This document shows, piece by piece, positions 6,592-64,000 of a stretch of 64,000 bases of DNA. A program made the translations under genes and the position numbers. Numbering within the stretch: position 1 is the first letter of the stretch; each line of letters opens with the position of its first letter. A model generated the notes under the pieces. It was not told the origin of the DNA and did no database searches. It worked only from the letters and a program-made list of their open reading frames with translations. Origin of the DNA: Hylemonella sp. (GTDB lineage Bacteria > Pseudomonadota > Gammaproteobacteria > Burkholderiales > Burkholderiaceae_C); assembly GCA_030695415.1 (NCBI GenBank), contig JAUYQZ010000030.1, positions 1 to 64,000 on the forward strand, read 5' to 3'.

Positions 6592-7194
6592 ATGCAGGTA
6601 CTCATCAAACTATCGAGGCTGATCGACAGCCTGAGCAGCCGGATCGGCTGGATCACCATGTGGCTGATCCTCGCCACCACGCTCATCAGCGCCGGCAACG
6701 CCATCGTGCGCAAGGCCTTCGGCACCAGCTCCAATGGCCTGCTGGAAATCCAGTGGTATCTGTTTGCCGCCGTCTTCATGCTGGGCGCGGGCTACGGTTT
6801 CCTCAAGAACTCGCATGTGCGCATCGACTTCATCTCCACGCGTCTGAGCGCCCGCGCGCGCAACTGGATCGACGTGGGGGGCATCGTGCTGGTGCTGATC
6901 CCCTTCTGCGTGATTTCCATCGCCCTGAGCTGGCCGCTGTTCGTGCAGACCTACACCTCGGGCGAGATGTCGCAGAACGCCGGCGGCCTGGTGCGCTGGC
7001 CCGCCTACGCCCTGATGCCGGCGGGTTTTGCGCTGCTGCTGCTGCAGGCCCTGTCCGAGCTGCTCAAGCGCGCGCTCTTCCTCACCGGCCAGGGCCCGGA
7101 CAGCCTGTCCGACGCCGACCACAAGAGCGACGAACAGAAGCACCTCGAAGAACTTGAGGCCCTTGCCGCGCGCAAGCTGGCCGGAGAAAAGTAA
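6592..7194 (+). CDS. dctQ: TRAP transporter small permease (DctQ type)
   Basis: A 200-residue four-helix membrane protein of the DctQ family, the small subunit of tripartite ATP-independent periplasmic transporters. I start at ATG 6592, which has GGAGC eight bases upstream; an upstream in-frame ATG at 6541 would add 17 non-hydrophobic residues. The motif EIQWYLFAAVFMLGAGYGF and the following NSHVRID are typical of the family. The C-terminus is a charged cytoplasmic tail. dctM begins directly after the stop codon, so the two are cotranslated. The substrate cannot be read from this subunit; mannitol/chloroaromatic- or 2-oxo-acid-type clusters are the usual Burkholderiales relatives. Confidence 0.88.
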   Translation: MQVLIKLSRLIDSLSSRIGWITMWLILATTLISAGNAIVRKAFGTSSNGLLEIQWYLFAAVFMLGAGYGFLKNSHVRIDFISTRLSARARNWIDVGGIVLVLIPFCVISIALSWPLFVQTYTSGEMSQNAGGLVRWPAYALMPAGFALLLLQALSELLKRALFLTGQGPDSLSDADHKSDEQKHLEELEALAARKLAGEK

Positions 7195-9003
<1,809 letters not shown>

Positions 9004-9031
9004 CGGGGCTCGGGCCCAAGCCTGGCACACC

Positions 9032-9055
9032 AGCCGCCCTGCGGGGCGGCTTTTT
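9032..9055 (+). terminator. Rho-independent terminator of dctQM
   Basis: An 8-bp perfect stem AGCCGCCC/GGGCGGCT with loop TGCG is followed by TTTTT, 29 bases after the dctM stop codon. The geometry is right for the plus strand. Confidence 0.85.
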
Positions 9056-9146
9056 CATGGTCGTGCGCCGGCGCTCCAGCCGCACGCATCGACCGGGGCA
9101 AGTCCGCCGCACGCCGCGCCCCACCGGACCGGCCATGGATCGGGCA

Positions 9147-9173
9147 CAAAAAAACCGCGCCGAAGCGCGGTTT
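9147..9173 (-). terminator. Rho-independent terminator of dctP
   Basis: Read on the minus strand, an 8-bp stem AACCGCGC/GCGCGGTT with a TTCG-type tetraloop runs into a run of seven T residues, just after the dctP stop. It is a strong terminator that insulates dctP from the convergent dctQM operon. Confidence 0.9.
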
Positions 9174-9194
9174 GGGAGTCCGGCGCAGAGCCGC

Positions 9195-10274
9195 TTACAG
9201 CTTCTGGGCTTGCATGAAGCTGTCGAAGCGGGCTTCCGTGAAGCGGAACCAGAGGTTCTGCTCGCGGCGGAAGTTGCTGTAGTCGGTGTAGACCTTCTTC
9301 CAGTTCGGGTTCTTGGCAGCGATATCGCTGTACAGGGCCATGGATTCCTTGTAGGCCAGGTCCATCACGTCCTTCGGGAAGGCCACCACCTTGGCCTTGT
9401 TGGCCACGAGCTGTTTCAGGGCCTCGGGGTTCCTGGCGTCGTACTTGGCCTGCATGTCCGTGTGGGCGAAGGCTGAAGCGGCTTCGACAATGGCCTTGTT
9501 CTCGGCCGACAGGGCTTCAAAGGCCTTGTTGTTGATGAACATGTCGAGCTGCGGGCCACCTTCCCACCAGCCGGGGTAGTGGTAGAAGGGAGCCACCTTG
9601 TGGAAGCCCAGCTTCTGGTCGTCGTACGGACCCACCCACTCGGCGGCGTCGATGGTGCCCTTTTCCAGCGCCTGGTAGATCTCGCCGCCCGGGATGTTCT
9701 GCGGCACGCCGCCCATGCGCTCGATGACCTTGCCGGCGAAGCCGCCCACGCGGAACTTCAGGCCCTTCATGTCCTTCACGCTCTTGATCTGCTTGCGGTA
9801 CCAGCCGCCCATCTGCGCGCCCGTGTTGCCGGCCGCGAAGTTGACGATGTTGTAGCCGGCGTAGAACTCGCGCATCAGCTTGCCGCCATTGCCCTGGTAG
9901 ATCCAGGCCGTCATCTGGCGGCTGTTCAGGCCGAAGGGCACGGCGCAGCCCAGGGCGAAGGTCTCGTCCTTGCCGAAGAAGTAGTAAGGAGCGGTGTGGG
10001 CGCACTCCACGGTGCCGTTCTGCACGCCGTCCACCACGCCGAAGGCGGGCATCAGCTCGCCGGCCGGGTGCACGGAAATGGTGAACTTGCCACCGGACAT
10101 CTCGCCGACCTTCTTGGCGAAGACTTCAGCCGCGCCGAAGATGGTGTCCAGGGCCTTGGGGAAGCTGGAAGCCAGGCGCCAGCGGATGGCAGCCTGGGCA
10201 TGCACGGCAGGTGCGACACCGGCGGCGAGCACGCCGGCGATACCGGCCTGCTTGATAAGGGAACGACGATCCAT
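9195..10274 (-). CDS. dctP: TRAP transporter substrate-binding protein (DctP type), Tat-like signal
   Basis: A 359-residue periplasmic solute receptor of the DctP/TakP class. The N-terminus MDRRSLIKQAGIAGVLAAG followed by VHAQA is a twin-arginine-like signal with a clear cleavage region. The mature part starts with IRWRLASSFPKALDTIFG, typical of the TRAP receptors that bind 2-oxo acids or related carboxylates as dimers (the TakP group); GGEIYQALEKGTIDAAEW is a further family signature. ATG 10274 is preceded by TAAGGAGTT. It is transcribed toward dctQM from its own promoter rather than in one operon. The ligand is a guess from family resemblance. Confidence 0.9.
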   Translation of the reverse strand: MDRRSLIKQAGIAGVLAAGVAPAVHAQAAIRWRLASSFPKALDTIFGAAEVFAKKVGEMSGGKFTISVHPAGELMPAFGVVDGVQNGTVECAHTAPYYFFGKDETFALGCAVPFGLNSRQMTAWIYQGNGGKLMREFYAGYNIVNFAAGNTGAQMGGWYRKQIKSVKDMKGLKFRVGGFAGKVIERMGGVPQNIPGGEIYQALEKGTIDAAEWVGPYDDQKLGFHKVAPFYHYPGWWEGGPQLDMFINNKAFEALSAENKAIVEAASAFAHTDMQAKYDARNPEALKQLVANKAKVVAFPKDVMDLAYKESMALYSDIAAKNPNWKKVYTDYSNFRREQNLWFRFTEARFDSFMQAQKL

Positions 10275-10601
10275 TGAATAACTCCTTATAGGGAACAGAG
10301 GTGGGCCGATTCTAGGAAACGCCGATTGCCACAGGCATAGGGGCTTACCCCCGTAAGTGCTTCTACCGAAGGGAAAATTAGGCCATCCAACCCCTTGCTC
10401 GCTCGCATTGTCGCCCTGCCGACATTGGGGCGCGCTGACCATGAAGTCGTCGTCGCGCAAGCCGGGCGACTCGGGCCCAGGCCCGGCCTGGATGGTGTCG
10501 CACCGGGGGCTGGTGCCGCGCGCATGCAGCAAGGCGGCCATCAAGGCTTTTCGAGTACCATCTTCGAGGATGAAGGGCGGTGGCGCGGCTTCGGCAGTCG
10601 A
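10275..10601. promoter_or_regulatory. Intergenic region between dctP and the cyclase gene, with an inverted repeat
   Basis: No credible gene is seen. Around 10346-10360 there is a dyad CTTAC/GTAAG around CCCC, next to a GGGG/CCCC pair, about 75 bases before dctP. On the minus strand TAGAAT near 10310 is a possible -10 for dctP, and the dyad lies just upstream of it, where an activator would bind. The right half, before the cyclase start at 10602, shows no clear promoter or ribosome site. Confidence 0.35.
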
Positions 10602-11543
10602 ATGACGCACCCTGTTCGCAACCAAATTGAGCGTCCGATGGCCACCGTCGTCTTTGCAGATCTTGTGGGCAGCACCAGGCTTTTCGAGCGACTGGGCGAT
10701 GAAACAGCCTCCAGGTTTGTGACCCAGCTGGTCGGCATGGTCAGCGCGATCTTCGCCCGGCATCATGGCCGCGTCGTGAAGCTGCTGGGCGACGGCCTGT
10801 TCGTTGTCTTCGAGCACGAGGGCGAAGCCCTGGCGGCCTGCATCCAGGTGCAGAACGAACTGCTGGCGCAACAGATCCGGCCTGCCGGCGGCGGCGAGGC
10901 GGTGGAGCTGCAGATCGGCATCGACAGCGGCGATGTCATCGAGATCGAGGGTGACTGCTTCGGCGACACGGTCAACTCCGCGGCCCGCCTGGCCGATCTG
11001 GCGGGGGCCTCGCAGATCCTCACGACCGACAATGTCTGGAACGCCATCTTCCCGGTTCAGCGCTCCGCGCTGCACAGCATGGGCCCCATGTATCTGCGCG
11101 GCAAGTCCGAGTCCAGCCATGTCTACCGCGTCGAATGGCAGTCGGGACGCGACGGCGAAGCCACCATGATCGGCCGCTCGACCGTCGCACCCCGGCGCGA
11201 GGACGTGCTGGAGCTCGCCTGCGGGGAAAGCCAGCTGCGCCTGGATGCCAGGTCCGACAAGATCTCGCTGGGCCGCGCCTCCGATGCCGCGCTGAAAGTG
11301 AACGACCCGCGGGTGTCACGCCTGCATGCGACCCTGGAATGGCGCGGCGGGCAGTTCGTGCTGACCGATGCCTCCAGCTTCGGCACCTGGGTCTACCTGG
11401 GCCGGCAGGACGACGCCGTGGTGCTGCGACGCACCGAATGCTGCCTGGTTGGCAGCGGCGAGATCGTCCTGGGCTGCTCCCGCGAAGACGAGAATGCCCC
11501 GTCGATCACGTTCTCGATCCGGACCGGGGCACCCAGGCCATGA
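10602..11543 (+). CDS. Class III adenylate/guanylate cyclase with C-terminal FHA domain
   Basis: A 313-residue soluble protein. Residues ~12-175 form a class III cyclase domain: FADLVGSTRLFE with the first metal Asp, LLGDGLFVVFE with the second, and GDTVNSAARLADLAG with the transition-state Asn and Arg. Residues ~205-300 form an FHA domain (LGRASDAALKVNDPRVSRLHA, then SSFGTWV) that binds phosphothreonine. I start at ATG 10602; upstream in-frame codons lack domain support. Its TGA overlaps the ATG of kinase 2 (ATGA), so the two are translationally coupled. The FHA domain is an obvious docking site for the phosphorylated kinase, so cyclase output may depend on kinase activity (inference). Confidence 0.88.
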   Translation: MTHPVRNQIERPMATVVFADLVGSTRLFERLGDETASRFVTQLVGMVSAIFARHHGRVVKLLGDGLFVVFEHEGEALAACIQVQNELLAQQIRPAGGGEAVELQIGIDSGDVIEIEGDCFGDTVNSAARLADLAGASQILTTDNVWNAIFPVQRSALHSMGPMYLRGKSESSHVYRVEWQSGRDGEATMIGRSTVAPRREDVLELACGESQLRLDARSDKISLGRASDAALKVNDPRVSRLHATLEWRGGQFVLTDASSFGTWVYLGRQDDAVVLRRTECCLVGSGEIVLGCSREDENAPSITFSIRTGAPRP

Positions 11544-20467: not shown

Positions 20468-22729
20468 TCAGGCCGGTGCCGCTTCGACAAAGGGTGAAAC
20501 CAGCGGCAGCGTCAGCGTGAAGACCGTGCCCTCGCCGGGCTGGCTCGCAACAAAGATGCGTCCGCCCAGCACACCGGTGACGAGGTTGTGCACGATGTTG
20601 AGGCCCAGGCCGGAGCCGCCCTGCCCGAACTTGGTGGTGAAGAAGGGGTCGAAAATCCTGCCCAGATGCTCCGGCGCGATGCCCATGCCGTCGTCGCTGA
20701 AGCTCAGCTCCACACCGTCATCGCCGATCCGCTGCGTCCGGATGCGGATGCAACCGCTCGCCCGTCCCTCGAAGGCATGGATCAGCGCGTTGTTGAAAAG
20801 ATTCGTGATGACCTGGCCCAGCGGACCCGGGTAGCTGTCCATGCGAAGTTCTTCCGCCAGATCGAGTTCGATCCGCACACCCTCGCCCTTGACCAGGTGG
20901 CGCACCGTCGCCATGATTTCTTCCAGCGTCGGTTTGAGCTCAAATGCACGCCGCTTGGAACTGGTCTGATCCACCGCGACCATCTTGAAGCTGTTGATCA
21001 GATCGGCCGCCCGCCTCAGATTGCCCAGCACCATCGTCGTGGACTCGGACGCATCCTGCGTGAAGCTCACCATGTCCTGCCGTGAGAGCGTGTTGTCCTT
21101 GAACCGTTCGGCCAGGTCCTTGACCCTCTCGTCCAGGTAGGAGGCCGCCGTCACCCCGATGCCCACCGGTGTGTTGATCTCGTGCGCCACGCCGGCCACC
21201 AGCCCGCCCAGGGCGGCCAGCTTTTCCGCGCGCACCAGTTCGTCCTGCGCCAGCCTGAGCGTCTGGACCGACTGCTCCAGCTCCCGCGTGCGTTCACTCA
21301 CCCGCTGCTCCAGCGACTGATTCAGCTCCCGGATGTCGCGTTCCATCTGCCGCTGCGCGGTGATGTCTTCGGCGCTGGAGATGATGCAGTTATCCCCGAG
21401 GATGCGAACACTCTCCATCGAGATCCGGCACAGGCGCGGACCCGCGTAGGTGCGCAGGACCACCTCCGCATGGTCGACGCGGGAATCGGCACTGAACTTG
21501 GCCATCAGATCTTCGCGATCCTGTGCGGCGGCGTACAAACCCAGCTGAAGGGAGGTGTTCCCGATGACCGCGTCGCGCTCGAGCCCGAACAGCGCAAGAA
21601 AGGCGGCATTCACGTCCAAGAATCGCCCATCGGCGGCACGGATCACCGTGAGTGACACCGGGGAATGCCGGAATATCGCCGTGAATTTTTCTTCACCCTC
21701 GCGCACACCGGCCTGGGCTTTCAGGATGTCGTGGATCATCCTGCGGACATTACTGGACAGTGAGCCCACCTCGTCCGTGCTGGGGGCCGCTGCCAACGCC
21801 AGTTCACGCTCCACCCGTTCGGACAAGGCGCCCTCACGGCCAAAGCGGTCCACCGCGCCACCTAGAGCCTGCAGACGCTCGACCAGCTGTGCCAGCCAGC
21901 GGGCCAGCACCTGGCCCCCAAGGATCAGCAGCAGCAGGCTCGTCAAACCCACGATCAGCAGTGTTTCCAGCAGCGGCAGCGGCGGCACATGGTCCTTGGC
22001 AGCCAGCAATTCCGGGCCATTGCCCCAGGGCATCACCACGTCCACGGTCTTGCCTGCTCGCAGCCCGCTGGCACGGCGGCGCTGCTCCGCCAAAGCGGCA
22101 TCGGAGGACTGGGCCACGACAGCGTCGCGCCAGCGCAAACTCACCGCTGTACCCGGGTACGCCATCGACTGCAGCAGTGCATTGTCGAGCGGGGCGTAAA
22201 CCAGAAGCCGCCCGCGGCCGCTGGCGCCCATCCAGATGGACTGTTCGATCACCCGGTACACCGTGCGGTCGGCCGGACCGTACACCCACGACACGGCCAC
22301 GCTTCCCTTGGCGCCGGAGGGGATGTCAAGGTACTCCTGGGAACGCGTCCGGTACTGGTAGATCTGGCGTCCCGCCGCATCGAGCAGGGTCACGTGGGTG
22401 AAGATCTGCTGCCCACCGATGCTGGCCAGATAGGCCGACATCCGGGACTTGCTTTGGTCCGCCGACTCCAGCAGGCGGCCGAACTCGATCTGCCCGCGAA
22501 ACATATCTGCCTGGACCAGCCAGCCACGCTCCAGATCATCCATGCGGGCCTTGAAGTGCTCGGTCAGCTCCTGCGCCTGCAGCTCCCGTGCCGCCTCGTT
22601 GGTTCGCAGATAGATCGTCGCAGTGGCCAGCAGGCCTGCGAGCAGCGCCACCGCCAGCACCGCCAGAAACCGCCGGGCCAGGCTCTCCCGAAGGGATGAC
22701 CCGCTCCATGTCCGGGCGAAAAGGCTCAT
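20468..22729 (-). CDS. Sensor histidine kinase 1 with periplasmic sensor, HAMP-like and PAS domains
   Basis: A 753-residue membrane kinase. After an N-terminal helix (residues ~20-42) there is a periplasmic region of about 200 residues, a second helix near 245-265, a HAMP-like stretch, a PAS domain (~345-465, HSPVSLTVIRAADGRFLDVN), a coiled coil, the H-box GVAHEINTPVG (His near 514) and an HATPase domain with DDGMGI, FDPFFTT and GGSGLGLNIVHN. It has no receiver domain. ATG 22729 overlaps the stop of the binding protein upstream (ATGA), so the two are coupled. The H-box is of the DctB/HPK4 type. It is the last gene of a five-gene operon; no response regulator gene is nearby. Confidence 0.9.
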   Translation of the reverse strand: MSLFARTWSGSSLRESLARRFLAVLAVALLAGLLATATIYLRTNEAARELQAQELTEHFKARMDDLERGWLVQADMFRGQIEFGRLLESADQSKSRMSAYLASIGGQQIFTHVTLLDAAGRQIYQYRTRSQEYLDIPSGAKGSVAVSWVYGPADRTVYRVIEQSIWMGASGRGRLLVYAPLDNALLQSMAYPGTAVSLRWRDAVVAQSSDAALAEQRRRASGLRAGKTVDVVMPWGNGPELLAAKDHVPPLPLLETLLIVGLTSLLLLILGGQVLARWLAQLVERLQALGGAVDRFGREGALSERVERELALAAAPSTDEVGSLSSNVRRMIHDILKAQAGVREGEEKFTAIFRHSPVSLTVIRAADGRFLDVNAAFLALFGLERDAVIGNTSLQLGLYAAAQDREDLMAKFSADSRVDHAEVVLRTYAGPRLCRISMESVRILGDNCIISSAEDITAQRQMERDIRELNQSLEQRVSERTRELEQSVQTLRLAQDELVRAEKLAALGGLVAGVAHEINTPVGIGVTAASYLDERVKDLAERFKDNTLSRQDMVSFTQDASESTTMVLGNLRRAADLINSFKMVAVDQTSSKRRAFELKPTLEEIMATVRHLVKGEGVRIELDLAEELRMDSYPGPLGQVITNLFNNALIHAFEGRASGCIRIRTQRIGDDGVELSFSDDGMGIAPEHLGRIFDPFFTTKFGQGGSGLGLNIVHNLVTGVLGGRIFVASQPGEGTVFTLTLPLVSPFVEAAPA

Positions 22730-23742
22730 GGCTTTCGTCCTGCCCATCGATCCATCACCATCGCGTCGGCGCCAAACTGCTGTGCCGCCGCAATATCCGG
22801 GTTGCTGGCACGGAAGAAGGCCTCGGTCTCGCGCAGCTGCATCGCTGAAAACTTGCCGTCGCGGCTGTACTGGCGGGGATACTTCCGGCTCACGGCGACA
22901 AAGGCCGCGCGCTCCTCCCCTCTGAGGTTGAGGGCATCGGCAACCTGTTCCGGCGTATGCGCTCCCATCCAGCCCAGCACTTTTGCCAGCGTCCTGACCA
23001 TCTGCTGTGTCTTGCCCGGGTCCGCCTCAACGCGGTCCCGGCGACCGATCAGGGCACCGCGCAGGAAAGCGGCCCCCGGCATGTTCTTGATATCCTGCGG
23101 CACGGACGTGTTGAACACGGGGTAGGCCACTTTCGCCTCGGCGAGGCGAACCGCGGCCACCGCGTCCACCATGCAGGCATCGACCAGCCCGGTCTGCATG
23201 GCAGACAGACGCAACTCCCAGTCTGCGCCGATCGACTTCAGACGGATCTCGTCGAGCTTGACCCCTCGCCGCTGCAGCACCAGTTCGAGAAATTGCTGCG
23301 AGGTCACCTTGGTGGTCAGCGAGTTGCTGAAAATGCCGATGGTGCGGCCGCGCAGGTCCTCGATGCGCCGGACCTTGCCACGCAGTTCGTTGCGCACCAT
23401 GACGACGTACAAGGGCAAATCATCGTGCGCGGCCAGCACCACGATGCGCGGATCGCTCAGGTGCTGGTACATCGCCGCGGGCATGCCGATGACCGTGAAG
23501 TCGGCGTTGCCCGTCTGCAGATCGCGCAGTGCCACACCGCCTCCCTCGACGAACTTGAAGCGGATCGCGATCCCCTCGGCCCGGTCCAGCCCGAGCTTGA
23601 CGGCCAGCTCCAGCGGCGTCGACAACTGGCTGGCGGGGCCGGGCACGCTGACGACGACATCGGTCGGGGCTGCGGCCCGGGCCGGCCAGGCCAGGGCAAG
23701 GGGCAGGGCCAGGCCCAGCAGACTGTCACGGCGACGCATCAT
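22726..23742 (-). CDS. NMT1/SsuA-like periplasmic substrate-binding protein A
   Basis: A 338-residue secreted protein with signal MMRRRDSLLGLALPLALAW cut near ARAAAP. The mature part matches the ABC nitrate/sulfonate/taurine-type binding fold: ELAVKLGLDRAEGIAIRFKF, GNADFTVIGMPAAMYQHL, RGRTIGIFSNSLTTKVTSQQF. It is a close paralogue of the upstream binding protein and both end DRWAGRKP. The start overlaps that gene's stop (ATGATG) and has GGGAGGAA upstream. No permease or ATPase gene is present, so I infer a sensory partner role for the coupled kinase at 20468 rather than uptake. The ligand is unknown. Confidence 0.85.
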   Translation of the reverse strand: MMRRRDSLLGLALPLALAWPARAAAPTDVVVSVPGPASQLSTPLELAVKLGLDRAEGIAIRFKFVEGGGVALRDLQTGNADFTVIGMPAAMYQHLSDPRIVVLAAHDDLPLYVVMVRNELRGKVRRIEDLRGRTIGIFSNSLTTKVTSQQFLELVLQRRGVKLDEIRLKSIGADWELRLSAMQTGLVDACMVDAVAAVRLAEAKVAYPVFNTSVPQDIKNMPGAAFLRGALIGRRDRVEADPGKTQQMVRTLAKVLGWMGAHTPEQVADALNLRGEERAAFVAVSRKYPRQYSRDGKFSAMQLRETEAFFRASNPDIAAAQQFGADAMVMDRWAGRKP

Positions 23743-24830
23743 GGTTTCCTCCCTGCCCAGCGGTCGATGATCATGGTGTCCAGCGCAAGCTTCTGCGCTG
23801 CCGCATCGCCGGGCGTGCTGGCACGGAAGAAGACTTCCGTTTCCCGCAATTGCGCGGTCGAGAACTTGCCGTCGCGGCTGTACTGGCGCGGATACTTGCG
23901 CGCCACCGTCAGGAACGATTCGCGCTCGGCGCCGGCCTGCATCCCCAGCGCATCGGCGATCTGCTCCGGTGTGTGGCCCGCCATCCATGCCAGCACGCGC
24001 TGGACCACCCGGACCATGCGGTCGGCCGTGACCGGATCGACCTCGATGCGGTCCCGGCGACCGATCAGCGCTGCACGCAGGAACCCGGCTCCGGGGGTCT
24101 TCCTGGCATCGTCCGGCTTGCCGGTGCTGTAGAGCTGGAAAGCCATCTTCTCCCCGACCATGCGCGTGGCAAAGGGCTCGTCGTTCATCATGGCGTCCAC
24201 ACTGCCGCTCAGGAAGGCGGCGCTTTCAGTCTCCCAGCTCTGGCCCACGGAAGCCCGCCGGATGTCGCCGGCCGCAACACCCTGGCCAGCCAGCACCAGT
24301 TCCAGCAAGATGTCCGAAGTGGTCTGTGCCGTCAGGGACGAGCTGTGCATGCCGATCGTGCGCCCCTTGAGATCGGCGATGCGCCGCACCTTGCCGCGCA
24401 GGTCCTGCCGCACCATCAGCACATACAAGGGCAGGTCGTCCAGCGCTGCCAGGCTGACGATGCGCGGGTCTTTCAGGTGATGGCTCATCGCCGCGGGCAT
24501 GCCGTAAACGGCGTACTCCGCGTTGCCGGACTGGATGTCCTGGAACGCGATGCCGCCGCCACCGACGAACTTGAGCCTGAGCTGCAGTCCCTCGGCGCGG
24601 TCCAGCCCCAGCCTGACGGCCAGCTCAAGAGGCAGTGAGACAGAACCACCCGGCCCCGGCACACTCAGCCGCACTTCCCGCAGCGCCGGTGCCTGCGCGC
24701 CGGCCGGGACATGGAACAACGCGGCCAGGCTCAGCGCCTGGACGAGTGTGGCCAGGACTCGCCGACGCCACCGCGCCAGCACGGATGGGCCCTTGCCATC
24801 GATCGCACTGAATCTCATGGGAAGAGACAT
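23739..24830 (-). CDS. NMT1/SsuA-like periplasmic substrate-binding protein B
   Basis: A 363-residue protein with a long basic N-terminus and signal helix ending near VPAGAQAP. The mature core parallels protein A: LELAVRLGLDRAEGLQLRLK, GNAEYAVYGMPAAMSHHL, RKYPRQYSRDGKFSTAQLRE. An ATG at 24818 is an alternative start. It lies 3 bases after the stop of kinase 2 and overlaps the start of binding protein A, so it sits between two kinases in one transcript. Two such paralogues in tandem suggest either heterologous ligands or a duplicated sensor unit. Nothing visible fixes the ligand. Confidence 0.85.
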   Translation of the reverse strand: MSLPMRFSAIDGKGPSVLARWRRRVLATLVQALSLAALFHVPAGAQAPALREVRLSVPGPGGSVSLPLELAVRLGLDRAEGLQLRLKFVGGGGIAFQDIQSGNAEYAVYGMPAAMSHHLKDPRIVSLAALDDLPLYVLMVRQDLRGKVRRIADLKGRTIGMHSSSLTAQTTSDILLELVLAGQGVAAGDIRRASVGQSWETESAAFLSGSVDAMMNDEPFATRMVGEKMAFQLYSTGKPDDARKTPGAGFLRAALIGRRDRIEVDPVTADRMVRVVQRVLAWMAGHTPEQIADALGMQAGAERESFLTVARKYPRQYSRDGKFSTAQLRETEVFFRASTPGDAAAQKLALDTMIIDRWAGRKP

Positions 24831-24833
24831 GAT

Positions 24834-26372
24834 TTACTCCTGTCTGGCGGGGGGGGCCGTGCGCGGCAGCGTGATGATGAAGGTCGTCCCCTGCCCGGGA
24901 TGGCTCTGGACGCGAATGCGTCCGCCCAGCACACCGGTGACCAGGTTGTGCACGATGTTCAGTCCCAGGCCGGAGCCACCCTGGCCGAAACGGGTGGTGA
25001 AGAAGGGATCGAAAATCTTGCCCAGACTGTCCGCAGGGATGCCCTTGCCGTCGTCCTCGAAGCGCAATTCGATGCTCTGGGCATCCGGCGCGCGGGCCTC
25101 GATCCTGATGCGCCCGCGCTGCATCTCGTCGAAGGCGTGGAGCAGGGCGTTGTTGAACAGGTTGGTCAGAACCTGCCCCAGCGGACCGGGATAGCTGTCC
25201 ATGCGCAGATCCTCGCCCAGGGCCAGCTCGACCTCGATCTCGCGGCTCTTCACCAGGTGACGCAGGGTGGCCAGGATCTCCTCCACCGTCTCACGCAGCG
25301 CGAACTCGCGGCGCTTGGCGCTGGTCTGGTCCACGGCCACCATCTTGAAACTTCTGATCAGGTCCGCCGCCCGGTTCAGCTGGGTCAGCGCCATGCCCGT
25401 GGACTCCAGCGTGGTGTCGATGAAAGCACTCAGGTCCGAGCGCTTGATCGTGCCCGCTTGAAGCTGCGCCTCGATGTCCAGGGCCTTTTCATGCAGGAAG
25501 GAGGTGGCGGTCACGCCGATGCCCAGGGGCGTGTTGATCTCGTGCGAGATGCCGGCCACCAGCGAACCCAGGGCCGCAAGCTTTTCCGTCTGCACCAGGT
25601 AGCCCTGCGTACGCTCGAGTTCCTCCAGCGAATGCCGCAGTTCGGCGGTGCGCTCCTCGACGCGCTGCTCCAGTTCGACATTGGCGCGCTGCAGCCGCTC
25701 CTGGTCGCTGGCAATGCGCTCGGCCATGCGGTCGAAGGTCTGGCCCAGGGTGGCGATCTCGTCGTGGCCGTCCAGCCCGACCCGCACCGACAGGTCGCCG
25801 CTGGCAAGCTTTTGCGCCGCGACACGCAGTCGATCGAGCCGGCGCGTCAGCAGCCAGCCGATGCCGATGCCCACCACAGCGATCACCAGCATGCTCACGC
25901 CGGCGATCAGGATGCCCTGGTTGCGCGCCGCAGTGCTGGCCTCGACCAGCGCCGCCCGGGAAAACTCCAGGGCCAGGCTGCCCAGTCGCCAATTTGCGCG
26001 GCCCACTTCCTGTTGCCGCAAATAGTTGCCGGGAGCGGCCTTGAGTTCGGCCAGCGGTCGACCCAGATCGCCCGGGTTGCTGGCTGCCACCACCCGCCCC
26101 CTGCTGTCCAGCAGCATGGCCCGCACGATATGCCGGTCCTGCTGGAGGCTCTCCAGCACGGGTTGCAGTTCGGTGAATTCCTCGGTGACCAGCGCCTGCA
26201 CGGACTGGCCCCTGAGCAGGTCCAGCGTGACCTGTTCCTGGGCGGCCAGCTGGTCCGCGACCGACTCGTCCAGGCCGCCCAGAACGTGCCAGAGCGTCAG
26301 CCCCATCATCACCCCTTGCAGGACGAAGATGGTGATGGCGATGCGGTACTTCAGCGAGGCGTAGGCAGCCAT
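24834..26372 (-). CDS. Sensor histidine kinase 2 with HAMP domain
   Basis: A 512-residue kinase with an N-terminal helix (~10-32), a periplasmic domain of about 130 residues, a second helix (~155-180), a HAMP domain (LTRRLDRLRVAAQKLASGDL), a coiled coil, the H-box GISHEINTPLG (His near 275), the unusual conserved stretch FKMVAVDQTSAKRREF, an N-box in SYPGPLGQVLTNLFNNALLH and the ATPase motifs DDGKGIP and GGSGLGLNIVHN. It overlaps the PhnD-like gene upstream by 22 bases. It is closely related to kinase 3 at 29407. No receiver domain or cognate regulator gene is visible. Confidence 0.9.
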   Translation of the reverse strand: MAAYASLKYRIAITIFVLQGVMMGLTLWHVLGGLDESVADQLAAQEQVTLDLLRGQSVQALVTEEFTELQPVLESLQQDRHIVRAMLLDSRGRVVAASNPGDLGRPLAELKAAPGNYLRQQEVGRANWRLGSLALEFSRAALVEASTAARNQGILIAGVSMLVIAVVGIGIGWLLTRRLDRLRVAAQKLASGDLSVRVGLDGHDEIATLGQTFDRMAERIASDQERLQRANVELEQRVEERTAELRHSLEELERTQGYLVQTEKLAALGSLVAGISHEINTPLGIGVTATSFLHEKALDIEAQLQAGTIKRSDLSAFIDTTLESTGMALTQLNRAADLIRSFKMVAVDQTSAKRREFALRETVEEILATLRHLVKSREIEVELALGEDLRMDSYPGPLGQVLTNLFNNALLHAFDEMQRGRIRIEARAPDAQSIELRFEDDGKGIPADSLGKIFDPFFTTRFGQGGSGLGLNIVHNLVTGVLGGRIRVQSHPGQGTTFIITLPRTAPPARQE

Positions 26373-27220
26373 GGAAGGTCGAGGCCCTTCATCAGACTCC
26401 GGACCCCGTCAAATTCGGCGTCGCGGGCCTCGACGAAACCGCCGCTGCCGATGCTGGCGTTGAGGCGACGGCCCTCCTCCGAGTTGCTCCACCCCAGGAT
26501 CACCTTGCGCAGCCGCTCGCGCTCGGCCGCCGGCACGCGCGGATGCGCCACGAAAGTCAGATTGGGGATGGGCGGCGACTCCACGATGGTGCGGAACTTG
26601 ACCTTGAAGCGTGCCTCAGCGCCGGGCAGGGCGAAGGGCGGGCAGATGCAGGCCTGCGCCTCGCCGATCACCACCTGCTGCAAGCAGGACTCCACGGACC
26701 GGAAGCTGCGCATGGCGAAGTCCTTGTCCGGACTGAAGCGCTGCTCACGCATGACACGCCGCACCAGATGCACGGTGGGCAGGTACTCCGGCGGCGTCGC
26801 AATCGGCTTTCCCCTGAGGTCACCCAGCGTGCGTACCGGGCTCTGGTCCAGCACAACCAGCAACCCCTGGAAAGGCTCCTTCATGCGGGCTATCGGCAGG
26901 TAACCGTATTTGTCGACCGCCTCCACGTAGAAGAACGCATGCAAGAGCGTGAAGTCCATGCCGCCAGCGGTCACCTGCTCGAAATAGCGGTCAAAGGTGG
27001 AGGAGGTGCGGAAGGACACCGGCTGCCCGAGTTCCTGACCGAACTGCGCCGCCATGGGGGTGTACAGCTCCTCCATGCGCGCCGGTGACAGATAGGGCGC
27101 GACGCTGAAGCGCAGTTCACCGCCAGCGGCAAGCTGCGCCGTCGCGACGGAGACGCCCGTGAACGCCAACACCGTGCAACAAGCCTGCAGCACTCGCGCG
27201 ATACGCAGCATGATCCTCAT
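26351..27220 (-). CDS. PhnD-like periplasmic phosphate/phosphonate-type binding protein
   Basis: A 289-residue secreted protein of the PhnD/PtxB class and first gene of the kinase operon. ATG 27220 has GAGGT six bases upstream; the frame extends to 27277 without support. The signal covers residues ~1-35. Core segments include SVAPYLSPARMEELYTPMAA and DFTLLHAFFYVEAVDKYG. The mature part has cysteines at 179, 191 and 193 (CIC). In established systems the PhnD-family protein AioX senses arsenite through a cysteine and works with histidine kinase AioS; here the next gene is also a kinase, and the start of that kinase lies within this gene's last 22 bases. The oxyanion or metalloid ligand is inference. 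Confidence 0.85.
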   Translation of the reverse strand: MRIMLRIARVLQACCTVLAFTGVSVATAQLAAGGELRFSVAPYLSPARMEELYTPMAAQFGQELGQPVSFRTSSTFDRYFEQVTAGGMDFTLLHAFFYVEAVDKYGYLPIARMKEPFQGLLVVLDQSPVRTLGDLRGKPIATPPEYLPTVHLVRRVMREQRFSPDKDFAMRSFRSVESCLQQVVIGEAQACICPPFALPGAEARFKVKFRTIVESPPIPNLTFVAHPRVPAAERERLRKVILGWSNSEEGRRLNASIGSGGFVEARDAEFDGVRSLMKGLDLPWLPTPR

Positions 27221-29406: not shown

Positions 29407-31044
29407 TCAGGAAGCGTTCGGGGAGGGGCCCACGTCCGTGGGCGGCAGGTCTGCGTTCACGCGCGACGACGGGCTGATGGGCTGGGCCGTGTAGGCAGAG
29501 GGCTTGCCTGCCCCTGCCGCCATCGGCGCGACGCGCGGGATGTTGATCGTGAAGGTCGTGCCTTCACCGACCCGGCTGTCCACCGTGATCTGGCCGCCCA
29601 GGATGCTGGTGACGATGTTGTAGGCGATGTTGAGCCCCAGACCCGAGCCACCCTCGCCCGACTTGGTGGTGAAGAAGGGGTCGAACAGGCGGCCGAGGTG
29701 TTCGGGCGGCACGCCCACGCCGTCATCGCTGAAGAACAGTGCGATCGACTTGTCCGCGTAGGCCCGCACCTTGAGGGCGATGGTTCCCTTGGGGCGTCCT
29801 TCGAAAGCGTGCAGCAGCGCATTGCTGAACAGATTGGTGATCACCTGCCCCAGCGGGCCGGGGTAGCTGTCCATGGCGATGTTGTCGGAAAGATCGAGCC
29901 GCAGGTCGATGCGCCGGTTCTTGAGCAGCGGCCGCAGCGTGGAGACGATCTCCTGCAGCGTCTCCATGAGCATGAATTCGCGCCGCTTGGCGCTGGACTG
30001 GTCCACCGCCACCATCTTGAAGTTGCGGATGAGTTCTGCCGCCCGCTCCAGATTGGCCAGCACCATGGCATTGGCCTCGGTCGTCCGCGCCATGAAATCG
30101 GTCAGCGCGGTGCGGGTCACCCGGCCGGAACGGATGTGCTCCTCCAGCGACTTGAGCAACTCCTCCACATAGGTGGCGGCCGTCACGCTGATGCCCAGCG
30201 GCGTGTTGATCTCATGCGACACCCCCGCCACCAGCGAGCCCAGCGCCGCCATCTTCTCCGACTGCAGCAGATGATCCTGCATGCGCCGCATGTCCTCGAT
30301 CGACTTGGTCAGCTCCCCGGTGCGCTCCTCCACCCGGCGCTCCAGCGCCACATTCAGGCGCATCAGGGCGTACTGGTTCTCGGCCACCCGGCGCGCCATC
30401 AGGTCGAATGCGCGGCTCAGGGCAGCGATCTCATCCTTGCCGTCCAGCCCGGTGCGCACCGCCAGGTCGCCGGCCGCCATCTTTTCGGCCGCCAGGCGCA
30501 GGCGATCGAGCCGGCGCGTCAGCAGCCAGGCCGTCGCCAGCGCGGCCACGGTGACCAGGATCATGCCGCCGGCCGCAATCGCCATGGCCAGCGCGCGCGC
30601 ATCGTCCTGCGCCTGCTCCAGCGGCTGGCGGGAAAACTCCATGGCCAGGGTTCCCACCGCGACTTTGGCGCGGGCGATTTCCAGTTGGCGCCAATGGGCC
30701 TGCACCCCGGGCTTCAGACCACGGAGGGCCCGGTCCAGATCCTTGCGCTGGCTGGCGGCCACAACCCGTCCATGCTCGTCAGCCAGCACGGCCCGCAGGA
30801 TGCGCTGATCGCGGCTGACCCCCTCCAGCAGCAACTGGATGCCTGCAGTGTCCCGGGTCTCCAGCGCCTGCAGAGACGGATCCCGCAGCAGGTCGAGCAT
30901 GATCTCCTCGTGGGCCAGCACCTCCGCTTCCACCAGCGACAGCAGCGTCCCCTGCAACTGCCAGTAAACCAGGCCCAGCAGCAGGCTGGCCATCAGGAAG
31001 ATGGTCGCGAAAATGCGGGATTTCAGCGAGTGGAAGGGTGCCAT
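29407..31044 (-). CDS. Sensor histidine kinase 3, paralogue of kinase 2
   Basis: A 545-residue kinase with the same layout as kinase 2: N-terminal helix, ~120-residue periplasmic domain, second helix, HAMP domain (LTRRLDRLRLAAEKMAAGDL), H-box GVSHEINTPLG (His near 277), the FKMVAVDQSSAKRREF stretch, and ATPase motifs DDGVGVP, FDPFFTT and GGSGLGLNIAYN. A Pro/Ser-rich tail of about 40 residues follows. I start at ATG 31044; the longer frame to 31530 is antisense to the ZIP gene coding region and not supported. Downstream come the Mrr-like and small membrane proteins. No binding protein gene or response regulator is adjacent. Confidence 0.9.
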   Translation of the reverse strand: MAPFHSLKSRIFATIFLMASLLLGLVYWQLQGTLLSLVEAEVLAHEEIMLDLLRDPSLQALETRDTAGIQLLLEGVSRDQRILRAVLADEHGRVVAASQRKDLDRALRGLKPGVQAHWRQLEIARAKVAVGTLAMEFSRQPLEQAQDDARALAMAIAAGGMILVTVAALATAWLLTRRLDRLRLAAEKMAAGDLAVRTGLDGKDEIAALSRAFDLMARRVAENQYALMRLNVALERRVEERTGELTKSIEDMRRMQDHLLQSEKMAALGSLVAGVSHEINTPLGISVTAATYVEELLKSLEEHIRSGRVTRTALTDFMARTTEANAMVLANLERAAELIRNFKMVAVDQSSAKRREFMLMETLQEIVSTLRPLLKNRRIDLRLDLSDNIAMDSYPGPLGQVITNLFSNALLHAFEGRPKGTIALKVRAYADKSIALFFSDDGVGVPPEHLGRLFDPFFTTKSGEGGSGLGLNIAYNIVTSILGGQITVDSRVGEGTTFTINIPRVAPMAAGAGKPSAYTAQPISPSSRVNADLPPTDVGPSPNAS

Positions 31045-63209: not shown

Positions 63210-63920
63210 CTAGATGCCCAGGTAGCGGTGCCAGAGCCCCGGCTCGGCCGCCAGTTCGGCGGAAGAACCGACCCAGACCACGCGCCCGCGCTCGATGATG
63301 GTGTGCGCATCGGCCAGCTGGATCAGCCGCTGCACGTACTTGTCGATCACCAGGATGCTCAAGCCCTGTGCCCGCAGCTCGTTCAGGCAGGCCCAGATCT
63401 GCTCGCGGATCAAGGGGGCCAGGCCCTCGGTGGCCTCGTCCAGGATCAGCAGCTCGGGGTTGGTCATCAGGGCGCGGCCGATGGCCAGCATCTGCTGCTC
63501 GCCCCCCGAGAGCTGGTTGCCCATGTGGCGCCGGCGCCCGGCCAGCGCGGGAAACAGGGCATAGACCCGGTCCAGCGTCCAGGGCTGGGCGCTGGCGCGA
63601 CGGTTGGCCGCGAAGGCCCGCAGGTTTTCCTCCACCGTGAGGTTGGGAAAGATCTGCCGGCCCTCGGGCACCAGGGCCAGACCCATGCGTGCGATGCGGT
63701 CCGGGCTCAGCCCGTCGATGCGCTCCCCCAGGAAACGCACCTCACCGCTGCGCGGCGGCGTCAGGCCGAAGATGGAGCGCACCGTGGTGGTCTTGCCCAT
63801 GCCATTGCGCCCCAGCAGGGTCGCCACCCCGCCGGCCTGGACGGTGAAGCCGATGCCGAACAGCACCTGGCTGGCGCCATAGGCCGTCTGCAGATCATTC
63901 ACCTCCAGCAAGGCGGTCAT
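63210..63920 (-). CDS. livF: Branched-chain amino-acid ABC transporter ATPase (LivF-like)
   Basis: A 236-residue ATPase. Walker A reads GRNGMGKTT, the signature LSGGEQQMLAI, Walker B LLILDEATEGLAP and a D-loop follows. The text PRSGEVRFLGERIDGLSPDRIARMG and GRQIFPNLTVEENL are LivF hallmarks. An unusual DKYVQRLIQLAD replaces the common EQ/EHxM H-loop region (LVIDK rather than LVE[QH]), a known LivF variation. ATG 63920 overlaps the upstream stop. No livK or livG is in the window. Confidence 0.9.
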   Translation of the reverse strand: MTALLEVNDLQTAYGASQVLFGIGFTVQAGGVATLLGRNGMGKTTTVRSIFGLTPPRSGEVRFLGERIDGLSPDRIARMGLALVPEGRQIFPNLTVEENLRAFAANRRASAQPWTLDRVYALFPALAGRRRHMGNQLSGGEQQMLAIGRALMTNPELLILDEATEGLAPLIREQIWACLNELRAQGLSILVIDKYVQRLIQLADAHTIIERGRVVWVGSSAELAAEPGLWHRYLGI

Positions 63921-64000
63921 GCGTTCCTCCGGCGCCGCAAGGCCCGGTGCTCCAGCACCAGCACCCCCAGCGTGAGCAGCAGGATGAGACCGCCGTGCCA
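63917..64000 (-). CDS. C-terminus of a branched-chain amino-acid permease, cut by the window edge
   Basis: The visible 27 residues end with the hydrophobic helix GLILLLTLGVLVLEHRAL and a basic RRRRNA tail, as in a LivM-type permease. The TGA overlaps the ATG of livF by four bases (ATGA), showing translational coupling. The rest lies outside the window. Confidence 0.65.
   Translation of the reverse strand, partial: WHGGLILLLTLGVLVLEHRALRRRRNA

Follow-up and report, generated by a model that had tools for sequence, protein, structure and literature searches.

What do three binding proteins (SBPs) do in an operon whose only other products are two membrane histidine kinases? The question is raised by a minus-strand run of five genes, in the order PhnD-like, HKA, SBP1, SBP2 and HKB, within the window, that is, the whole stretch of 64,000 nucleotides analysed here. 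A sequence-only reading of this DNA had claimed that the five genes are tightly packed, which is borne out, and that they overlap by 1-22 bases, which is read here as overlaps of 4-22 bp plus a single gap of 3 bp. The features are as follows.

26351..27220, minus strand: PhnD-like, a PF12974 binding protein of 289 aa, proposed receptor of module 1
24834..26372, minus strand: HKA, a membrane histidine kinase with a HEINTP-type kinase core; 22 bp overlap with PhnD-like
23739..24830, minus strand: SBP1, NMT1-like (PF09084), module 2; 3 bp gap after HKA
22726..23742, minus strand: SBP2, tandem paralogue of SBP1; 4 bp overlap with SBP1
20468..22747, minus strand: HKB, a membrane histidine kinase with PAS and a HEINTP-type kinase core; 22 bp overlap with SBP2
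21713..22747, minus strand: sensor region of HKB, residues 1-345, common to the partners of SBP1/2 relatives
29407..31044, minus strand: HKC, a third kinase, 2.2 kb upstream of the operon

The answer favoured here, and judged likely, is that two SBP-dependent sensing modules have been fused in one operon, the SBPs docking on the kinases and the kinases sharing a regulator of the DUF3369 type.

Pfam assigns the PhnD-like protein, the N-terminus of which resembles a signal peptide by eye, to Phosphonate-bd (7.7e-45), and SBP1 and SBP2, which are 59-60% identical to each other, to NMT1 (1.3e-13 and 5.6e-11, respectively). HAMP and HATPase domains are recognized in HKA, and PAS and HATPase domains in HKB; the HisKA matches of both kinases fall under the Pfam cut-off. 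N-terminal to the PAS domain (about residue 353), HKB matches no Pfam family at E 0.01. HKC is 53% identical to HKA across its full length and has an HKA-like sensor, with no SBP gene directly adjoining.

It had been noted that no permease, ATPase or receiver gene is present here, and scans of the window agree, permeases having been sought with two presumed PhnE proteins only. Probes for ABC ATPases found ATPase-like ORFs in the window only at 119-1363 and 63210-63998, about 20 and 36 kb from the operon; by these probes the operon is free of ABC transporter genes. The receiver domain PF00072 has no match anywhere in the 64,000 nt, and the sole one listed for the contig lies at 77.7 kb. The PhnD-like protein scores 53.4 bits with TIGR03431, the model for the PhnD transport SBP (cut-off 261.1), while SBP1 and SBP2 score 43.3 and 41.8 bits with the SsuA sulfonate model TIGR01728 (cut-off 163.5).

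A promoter and terminator scan gave two promoter-like sites against 0.4 expected, and four terminator-like sites against 3.5, and was not used. The assembly is rated 7.81% contaminated; that the contig itself is a contaminant was dismissed, as its IspA shares 90% identity with the IspA of a genus relative.

Pairing of binding proteins with sensors in relatives

SBP1 was searched in 100 related genomes, in which the 14 best-relative loci were read (L036-L049); a five-row SBP alignment run against named genomes yielded 30 loci, and an order-wide search of 399 genomes gave eight further strong places (L183-L190). Two of the 30, L099 and L108, are the same DNA as L037 and L038 and were dropped, leaving 50 distinct loci. 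In 47 of these, the SBP gene adjoins a gene for a membrane receptor with an HKB-type sensor (40/42, plus 7/8 in the order-wide set), on the same strand and at most 138 bp away when measured between stop-to-stop ORFs. No sensor gene was seen beside the SBP in L104, L111 and L189. Loci were counted from six-frame ORFs and phmmer, re-called genes or tblastn, a simple gene caller having misassigned strands in some high-GC loci. The 47 include L190 (8359-9401), where the SBP gene holds internal stop codons and the frame of its GGDEF-EAL partner is open.

The sensor is conserved, and the output to which it is joined changes. Among the 47 partners, 22 carry GGDEF-EAL, 14 are hybrid kinases, six are kinases and three carry GGDEF; the two with no output seen are L100, at a contig end, and L105. 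Pfam, run on nine proteins from six loci, six of them partners, agrees with these calls. On the best tree of 35 sensor regions, six switches between kinase and GGDEF-type outputs are counted, at least three of which are forced by well-supported branches; alignment A4 and the trees were made without L042, L044-L046, L049, L100, L104, L111 and L183-L190, and L105 was left out of the output labels. Where the partner is a kinase or hybrid kinase (20 loci), a receiver is encoded within it or by an adjacent gene in 18, the remaining two (L117 and L127) ending at contig edges. Compared with these kinase-type relatives, the missing receiver is the odd feature of the window.

The SBP-sensor family extends over betaproteobacterial genomes and, to judge from record titles, Magnetococcales, Thiotrichales and one alphaproteobacterial MAG. 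Tandem SBPs also occur in L036, L043 and L126. The first of these (6681-11468, contig C15) is a second locus in the genome of the window, where a pair of SBP genes accompanies a GGDEF-EAL partner; comparable SBP/GGDEF-EAL loci, mostly with a single SBP, are seen in eight same-genus genomes read. The SBPs of L041, L043 and L046 start with an RRRFL or RRHFL motif, which resembles a Tat signal.

For the PhnD-like protein, searched in the manner of SBP1, 12 loci were read (L078-L086 and L095-L097), mostly from the top of the match list and including two from its own genome; high matches outside the 12 include those in G087:C2, G086:C2, G010 and G005. A sensor of the HKA/HKC type adjoins the PhnD homologue in nine of the 12 loci read (Pfam on part of them). 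Eight of the nine have a GGDEF-EAL output, and L081 has a kinase followed by an NtrC-type regulator. As for the other three, the kinase of L085 matches CHASE8, L097 is cut short by the contig end, and L079, from the genome of the window, is a PhnD-type transport locus with an ATPase and two presumed permeases. Full-length relatives of HKA without a nearby PhnD match occur in other genomes (L087-L092 and L094); in PhnD-less loci the HKA-sensor phmmer scores are 15-22 bits where seen, against 22-71 bits beside PhnD. In L078 (5846-9600, contig C48 of the same genome), a PhnD-like gene overlaps that of an HKA-type sensor with PAS, GGDEF and EAL.

The two sensor regions were modelled with AlphaFold at pLDDT 89 (HKB) and 88 (HKA). 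The best solved single domains in Foldseek are Mlp24, KinD, Tlp3 and DctB for HKB (from E 4e-5), and DctB, WalK and CitA for HKA (from E 3e-4), the very top row for both being an integrative model. The HKB sensor is thus predicted to be double PAS/CACHE-like and that of HKA single PAS/CACHE-like, although TM-scores are modest and this denotes a fold class rather than a family assignment.

These pairings bear on how the operon is to be divided. The sequence-only reading had taken its binding proteins to be kinase-linked sensors and not transport parts, arranged in a single three-sensor chain. The link to membrane sensors is upheld by the pairing in SBP1/2 loci; the single chain was rejected because its halves are found separately in relatives, PhnD relatives adjoining HKA-type and SBP1/2 relatives HKB-type sensors, and two modules are read in its place. 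Nor is the layout without parallel, although the sequence-only reading knew of none. In a Hydrogenophilus MAG (L107, 9884-18340), genes for an SBP, a hybrid histidine kinase, a REC-GGDEF protein, a PhnD-like protein (39 bits) and a second histidine kinase run in one direction, and the regulator is kept. The operon is therefore of a known kind and a new variant, with two SBP classes, sister kinase cores and no receiver. In two Rhodocyclaceae MAGs (L120 and L123, 780-15600), an SBP/hybrid-kinase/REC-GGDEF module is preceded about 6 kb upstream by a PhnD/GGDEF-EAL pair.

The kinase cores and a candidate regulator

The cores of HKA, HKB and HKC form one clade, with support of 98/91. All 20 kinase partners of other SBPs match some different kinase core more closely than they match those of the window; the latter score 22-51 bits against 19 of them and nothing against L127, compared with about 220-280 bits within the core family. 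HKB and HKA are 70-81% identical at the DNA level in ungapped stretches. The simplest reading of these comparisons would be that the local kinase core was copied and joined to the HKB sensor.

In the four genus-relative stretches read, the five operon genes have no tblastn match; in two of these genomes, G015 and G013, the rhodanese gene directly adjoins that of MipA at the site. HKC is likewise missing from between the Mrr-like and ZIP transporter genes in all four genus relatives read, where these two genes adjoin each other. Across 25 same-genus genomes, some of them incomplete, there is no SBP1 match above 42% identity and no PhnD match above 33%.

No cognate regulator is present in the operon, and a REC-DUF3369-HD protein is proposed from linkage in relatives. 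At E 1e-60, and with at most 15 candidates scored per genome, cores of the window type gave 68 matches in 26 of 100 genomes. Such a core is found no more than 6 kb from 20 of the 37 DUF3369 genes that pass the cut-off; 48 of the 68 core matches have no DUF3369 gene within that distance. By genome, 24 hold both core and DUF3369, two the core alone and three DUF3369 alone (Fisher p 1e-17, a value that ignores phylogeny). In the clade sister to the window cores, seven of ten rows have a DUF3369 neighbour, though the join of the two is only moderately supported (89/94). Three REC-DUF3369 regulators were read by Pfam, two with HD and one with GGDEF-EAL; REC and DUF3369 with HD-GYP are also noted in passages of an alphaproteobacterial survey (PMC9756655).

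The genome of the window has a single DUF3369 regulator, a REC-DUF3369-HD protein encoded at C4:35291-36853, which adjoins its own 1176-aa kinase. For receivers, 58 matches are listed in this genome. REC-GGDEF is the next gene in seven hybrid-kinase SBP loci (L107, L109, L113, L114, L120, L122 and L123). On the strength of these neighbours, the core-DUF3369 linkage in relatives and the single regulator of the genome, HKA, HKB and HKC are predicted to converge on that one regulator, with a c-di-GMP output. Identity in the DHp region was rejected as a means of finding the cognate, as it singled none out: between any two of HKA, HKB and HKC, 23-24 of 34 positions agree, and HKB agrees with a further kinase encoded in the genome at 27.

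Competing explanations

In the favoured scheme of two fused modules, the PhnD-like protein would bind a small periplasmic ligand and dock on the single-CACHE-like domain of HKA, and SBP1 with its divergent tandem copy SBP2 would dock likewise on HKB, at its double-CACHE-like domain. Such contacts would alter kinase activity, and transport would not be involved. As their cores are sisters, HKA, HKB and the nearby HKC probably phosphorylate one common regulator elsewhere, for which REC-DUF3369-HD, with one member in the genome, is the best candidate class and would lead to a c-di-GMP output. It has to be weighed against three others, which differ in what the SBPs do.

It is unlikely that they are ordinary ABC-transport SBPs served by a permease and ATPase encoded elsewhere, their co-transcription with the kinases coupling uptake to regulation. 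All three do belong to families named for ABC transporters, and the same genome holds the PhnD-type transport locus described above. However, relatives of SBP1/2 form a separate score group, the lowest strong match in the order-wide search being 252 bits and the next 159. Of the 30 rows of weaker matches, 20 (two places entering twice) have an ABC ATPase no further than 1.5 kb away and none has an HKB-type sensor; of 16 strong rows, 14 have the sensor and two an ABC match, weak at 24 and 29 bits. Over the 50 loci, an ABC ATPase of more than 40 bits is near the SBP in just three, namely L109 (about 6 kb), L122 (about 5 kb, other strand) and L124 (1.2 kb upstream); weak matches of 20-26 bits are found in L185, L188 and L190, those of L188 and L190 within 0.5 kb on the other strand. 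A permease and ATPase conserved beside these genes in relatives, which would have told against the sequence-only reading, were sought with ATPase probes and not seen.

Direct sensing of ligands by the CACHE-like domains of HKA and HKB, with the SBP genes of little consequence for signalling, is the least probable of the three. Ligand-bound CACHE structures (Mlp24, Tlp3 and DctB) are among the Foldseek matches, and HKC does without an adjoining SBP gene; against this, the pairing of SBP and sensor outlasts the changes of output counted on the tree. The solitary HKC with its HKA-like sensor would also suit a cross-wired arrangement, in which the three SBPs and three kinases form a mixed network, one SBP modulating more than one kinase and SBP2 acting as an antagonist or adaptor. 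At a position where 42 of 49 aligned relatives read DEP, SBP2 carries DAV, but six further SBP rows also deviate from DEP, and the two sensor types pair with different SBP families in other genomes. A network of this sort is regarded as rather unlikely.

A broader version of the two-module reading is put forward only tentatively. NMT1-type SBPs and an unnamed double-CACHE-like sensor may constitute a widespread, undescribed receptor family with varying outputs (kinase, hybrid kinase, GGDEF or GGDEF-EAL), into which a neighbouring core would here have been copied, such that two SBP classes and three kinases feed one c-di-GMP regulator. In the literature listings that were searched, there is no account of these SBP-sensor families. 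SBPs encoded outside transporter operons tend to be given the names of transporter parts, and the pairing gives an initial clue to the function of a periplasmic domain that has no Pfam name. It also provides a system for asking how one SBP-sensor pair drives differing catalytic outputs, and what would be a natural example of an exchanged kinase core, with several receptors possibly feeding a single regulator.

Relation to known systems

SBP-triggered receptors are known, kinases and GGDEF/EAL proteins among them, as excerpts of PMC9602780 and PMC11113362 describe. In AioX-AioS-AioR, and likewise ArxXSR and ArrXSR, a PhnD-fold protein encoded with a sensor kinase is thought to be its ligand in the sensing of arsenic oxyanions, and the AioX pocket is formed by Y88, C106, Y131, S161, S163, H192 and D210 (passages of PMC5908839). 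AioX and ArrX are among the closest solved relatives of the PhnD-like protein by sequence. The sequence-only reading cited AioX-AioS as a precedent, which holds loosely, in that a PhnD-family protein is encoded with a kinase; none of the seven pocket residues is identical in an alignment that is weak (phmmer, 22.4 bits) and was read by hand, its letters then being checked (Y88 to F76, C106 to H94, Y131 to F117, S161 to L147, S163 to T149, H192 to a gap and D210 to P194). Unlike the AioX, ArxX and ArrX systems, the window has the kinase without a regulator gene. By its pocket, the PhnD-like protein falls outside the AioX subfamily. The CIC motif at residues 191-193 of the PhnD-like protein is present as described. 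Alignment A2 has 13 rows besides, all of them lacking CIC, and AioX-like metalloid sensing through it was rejected on this ground and on the pocket comparison. No arsenic genes were found among five neighbouring proteins scanned by Pfam.

In Pseudomonas aeruginosa, orphan SBP genes beside AgtS and AruS lie outside transporter operons and near sensor kinases, the ligands being GABA and 5-aminovalerate (part of PMC11113362). These differ from the present case in that PA0602 is of the SBP_bac_8 family, neither NMT1 nor PhnD. In the polyamine-sensing NspS-MbaA systems of Vibrio cholerae and Sinorhizobium meliloti, a periplasmic binding protein controls a membrane protein that modulates c-di-GMP (excerpts of PMC8967002, PMC9993111 and PMC5646818). 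Relatives of both modules here likewise have GGDEF-EAL as their most frequent output, whereas the output in the window is a kinase. NspS belongs to an SBP family other than those of the window, as do LuxP and TorT. LuxP-LuxQ and TorT-TorS each combine a periplasmic binding protein with a sensor kinase; the kinases are hybrids, with one SBP per kinase. Foldseek places the periplasmic domain of LuxQ at rank 22 for HKA, a weak match (E 0.015).
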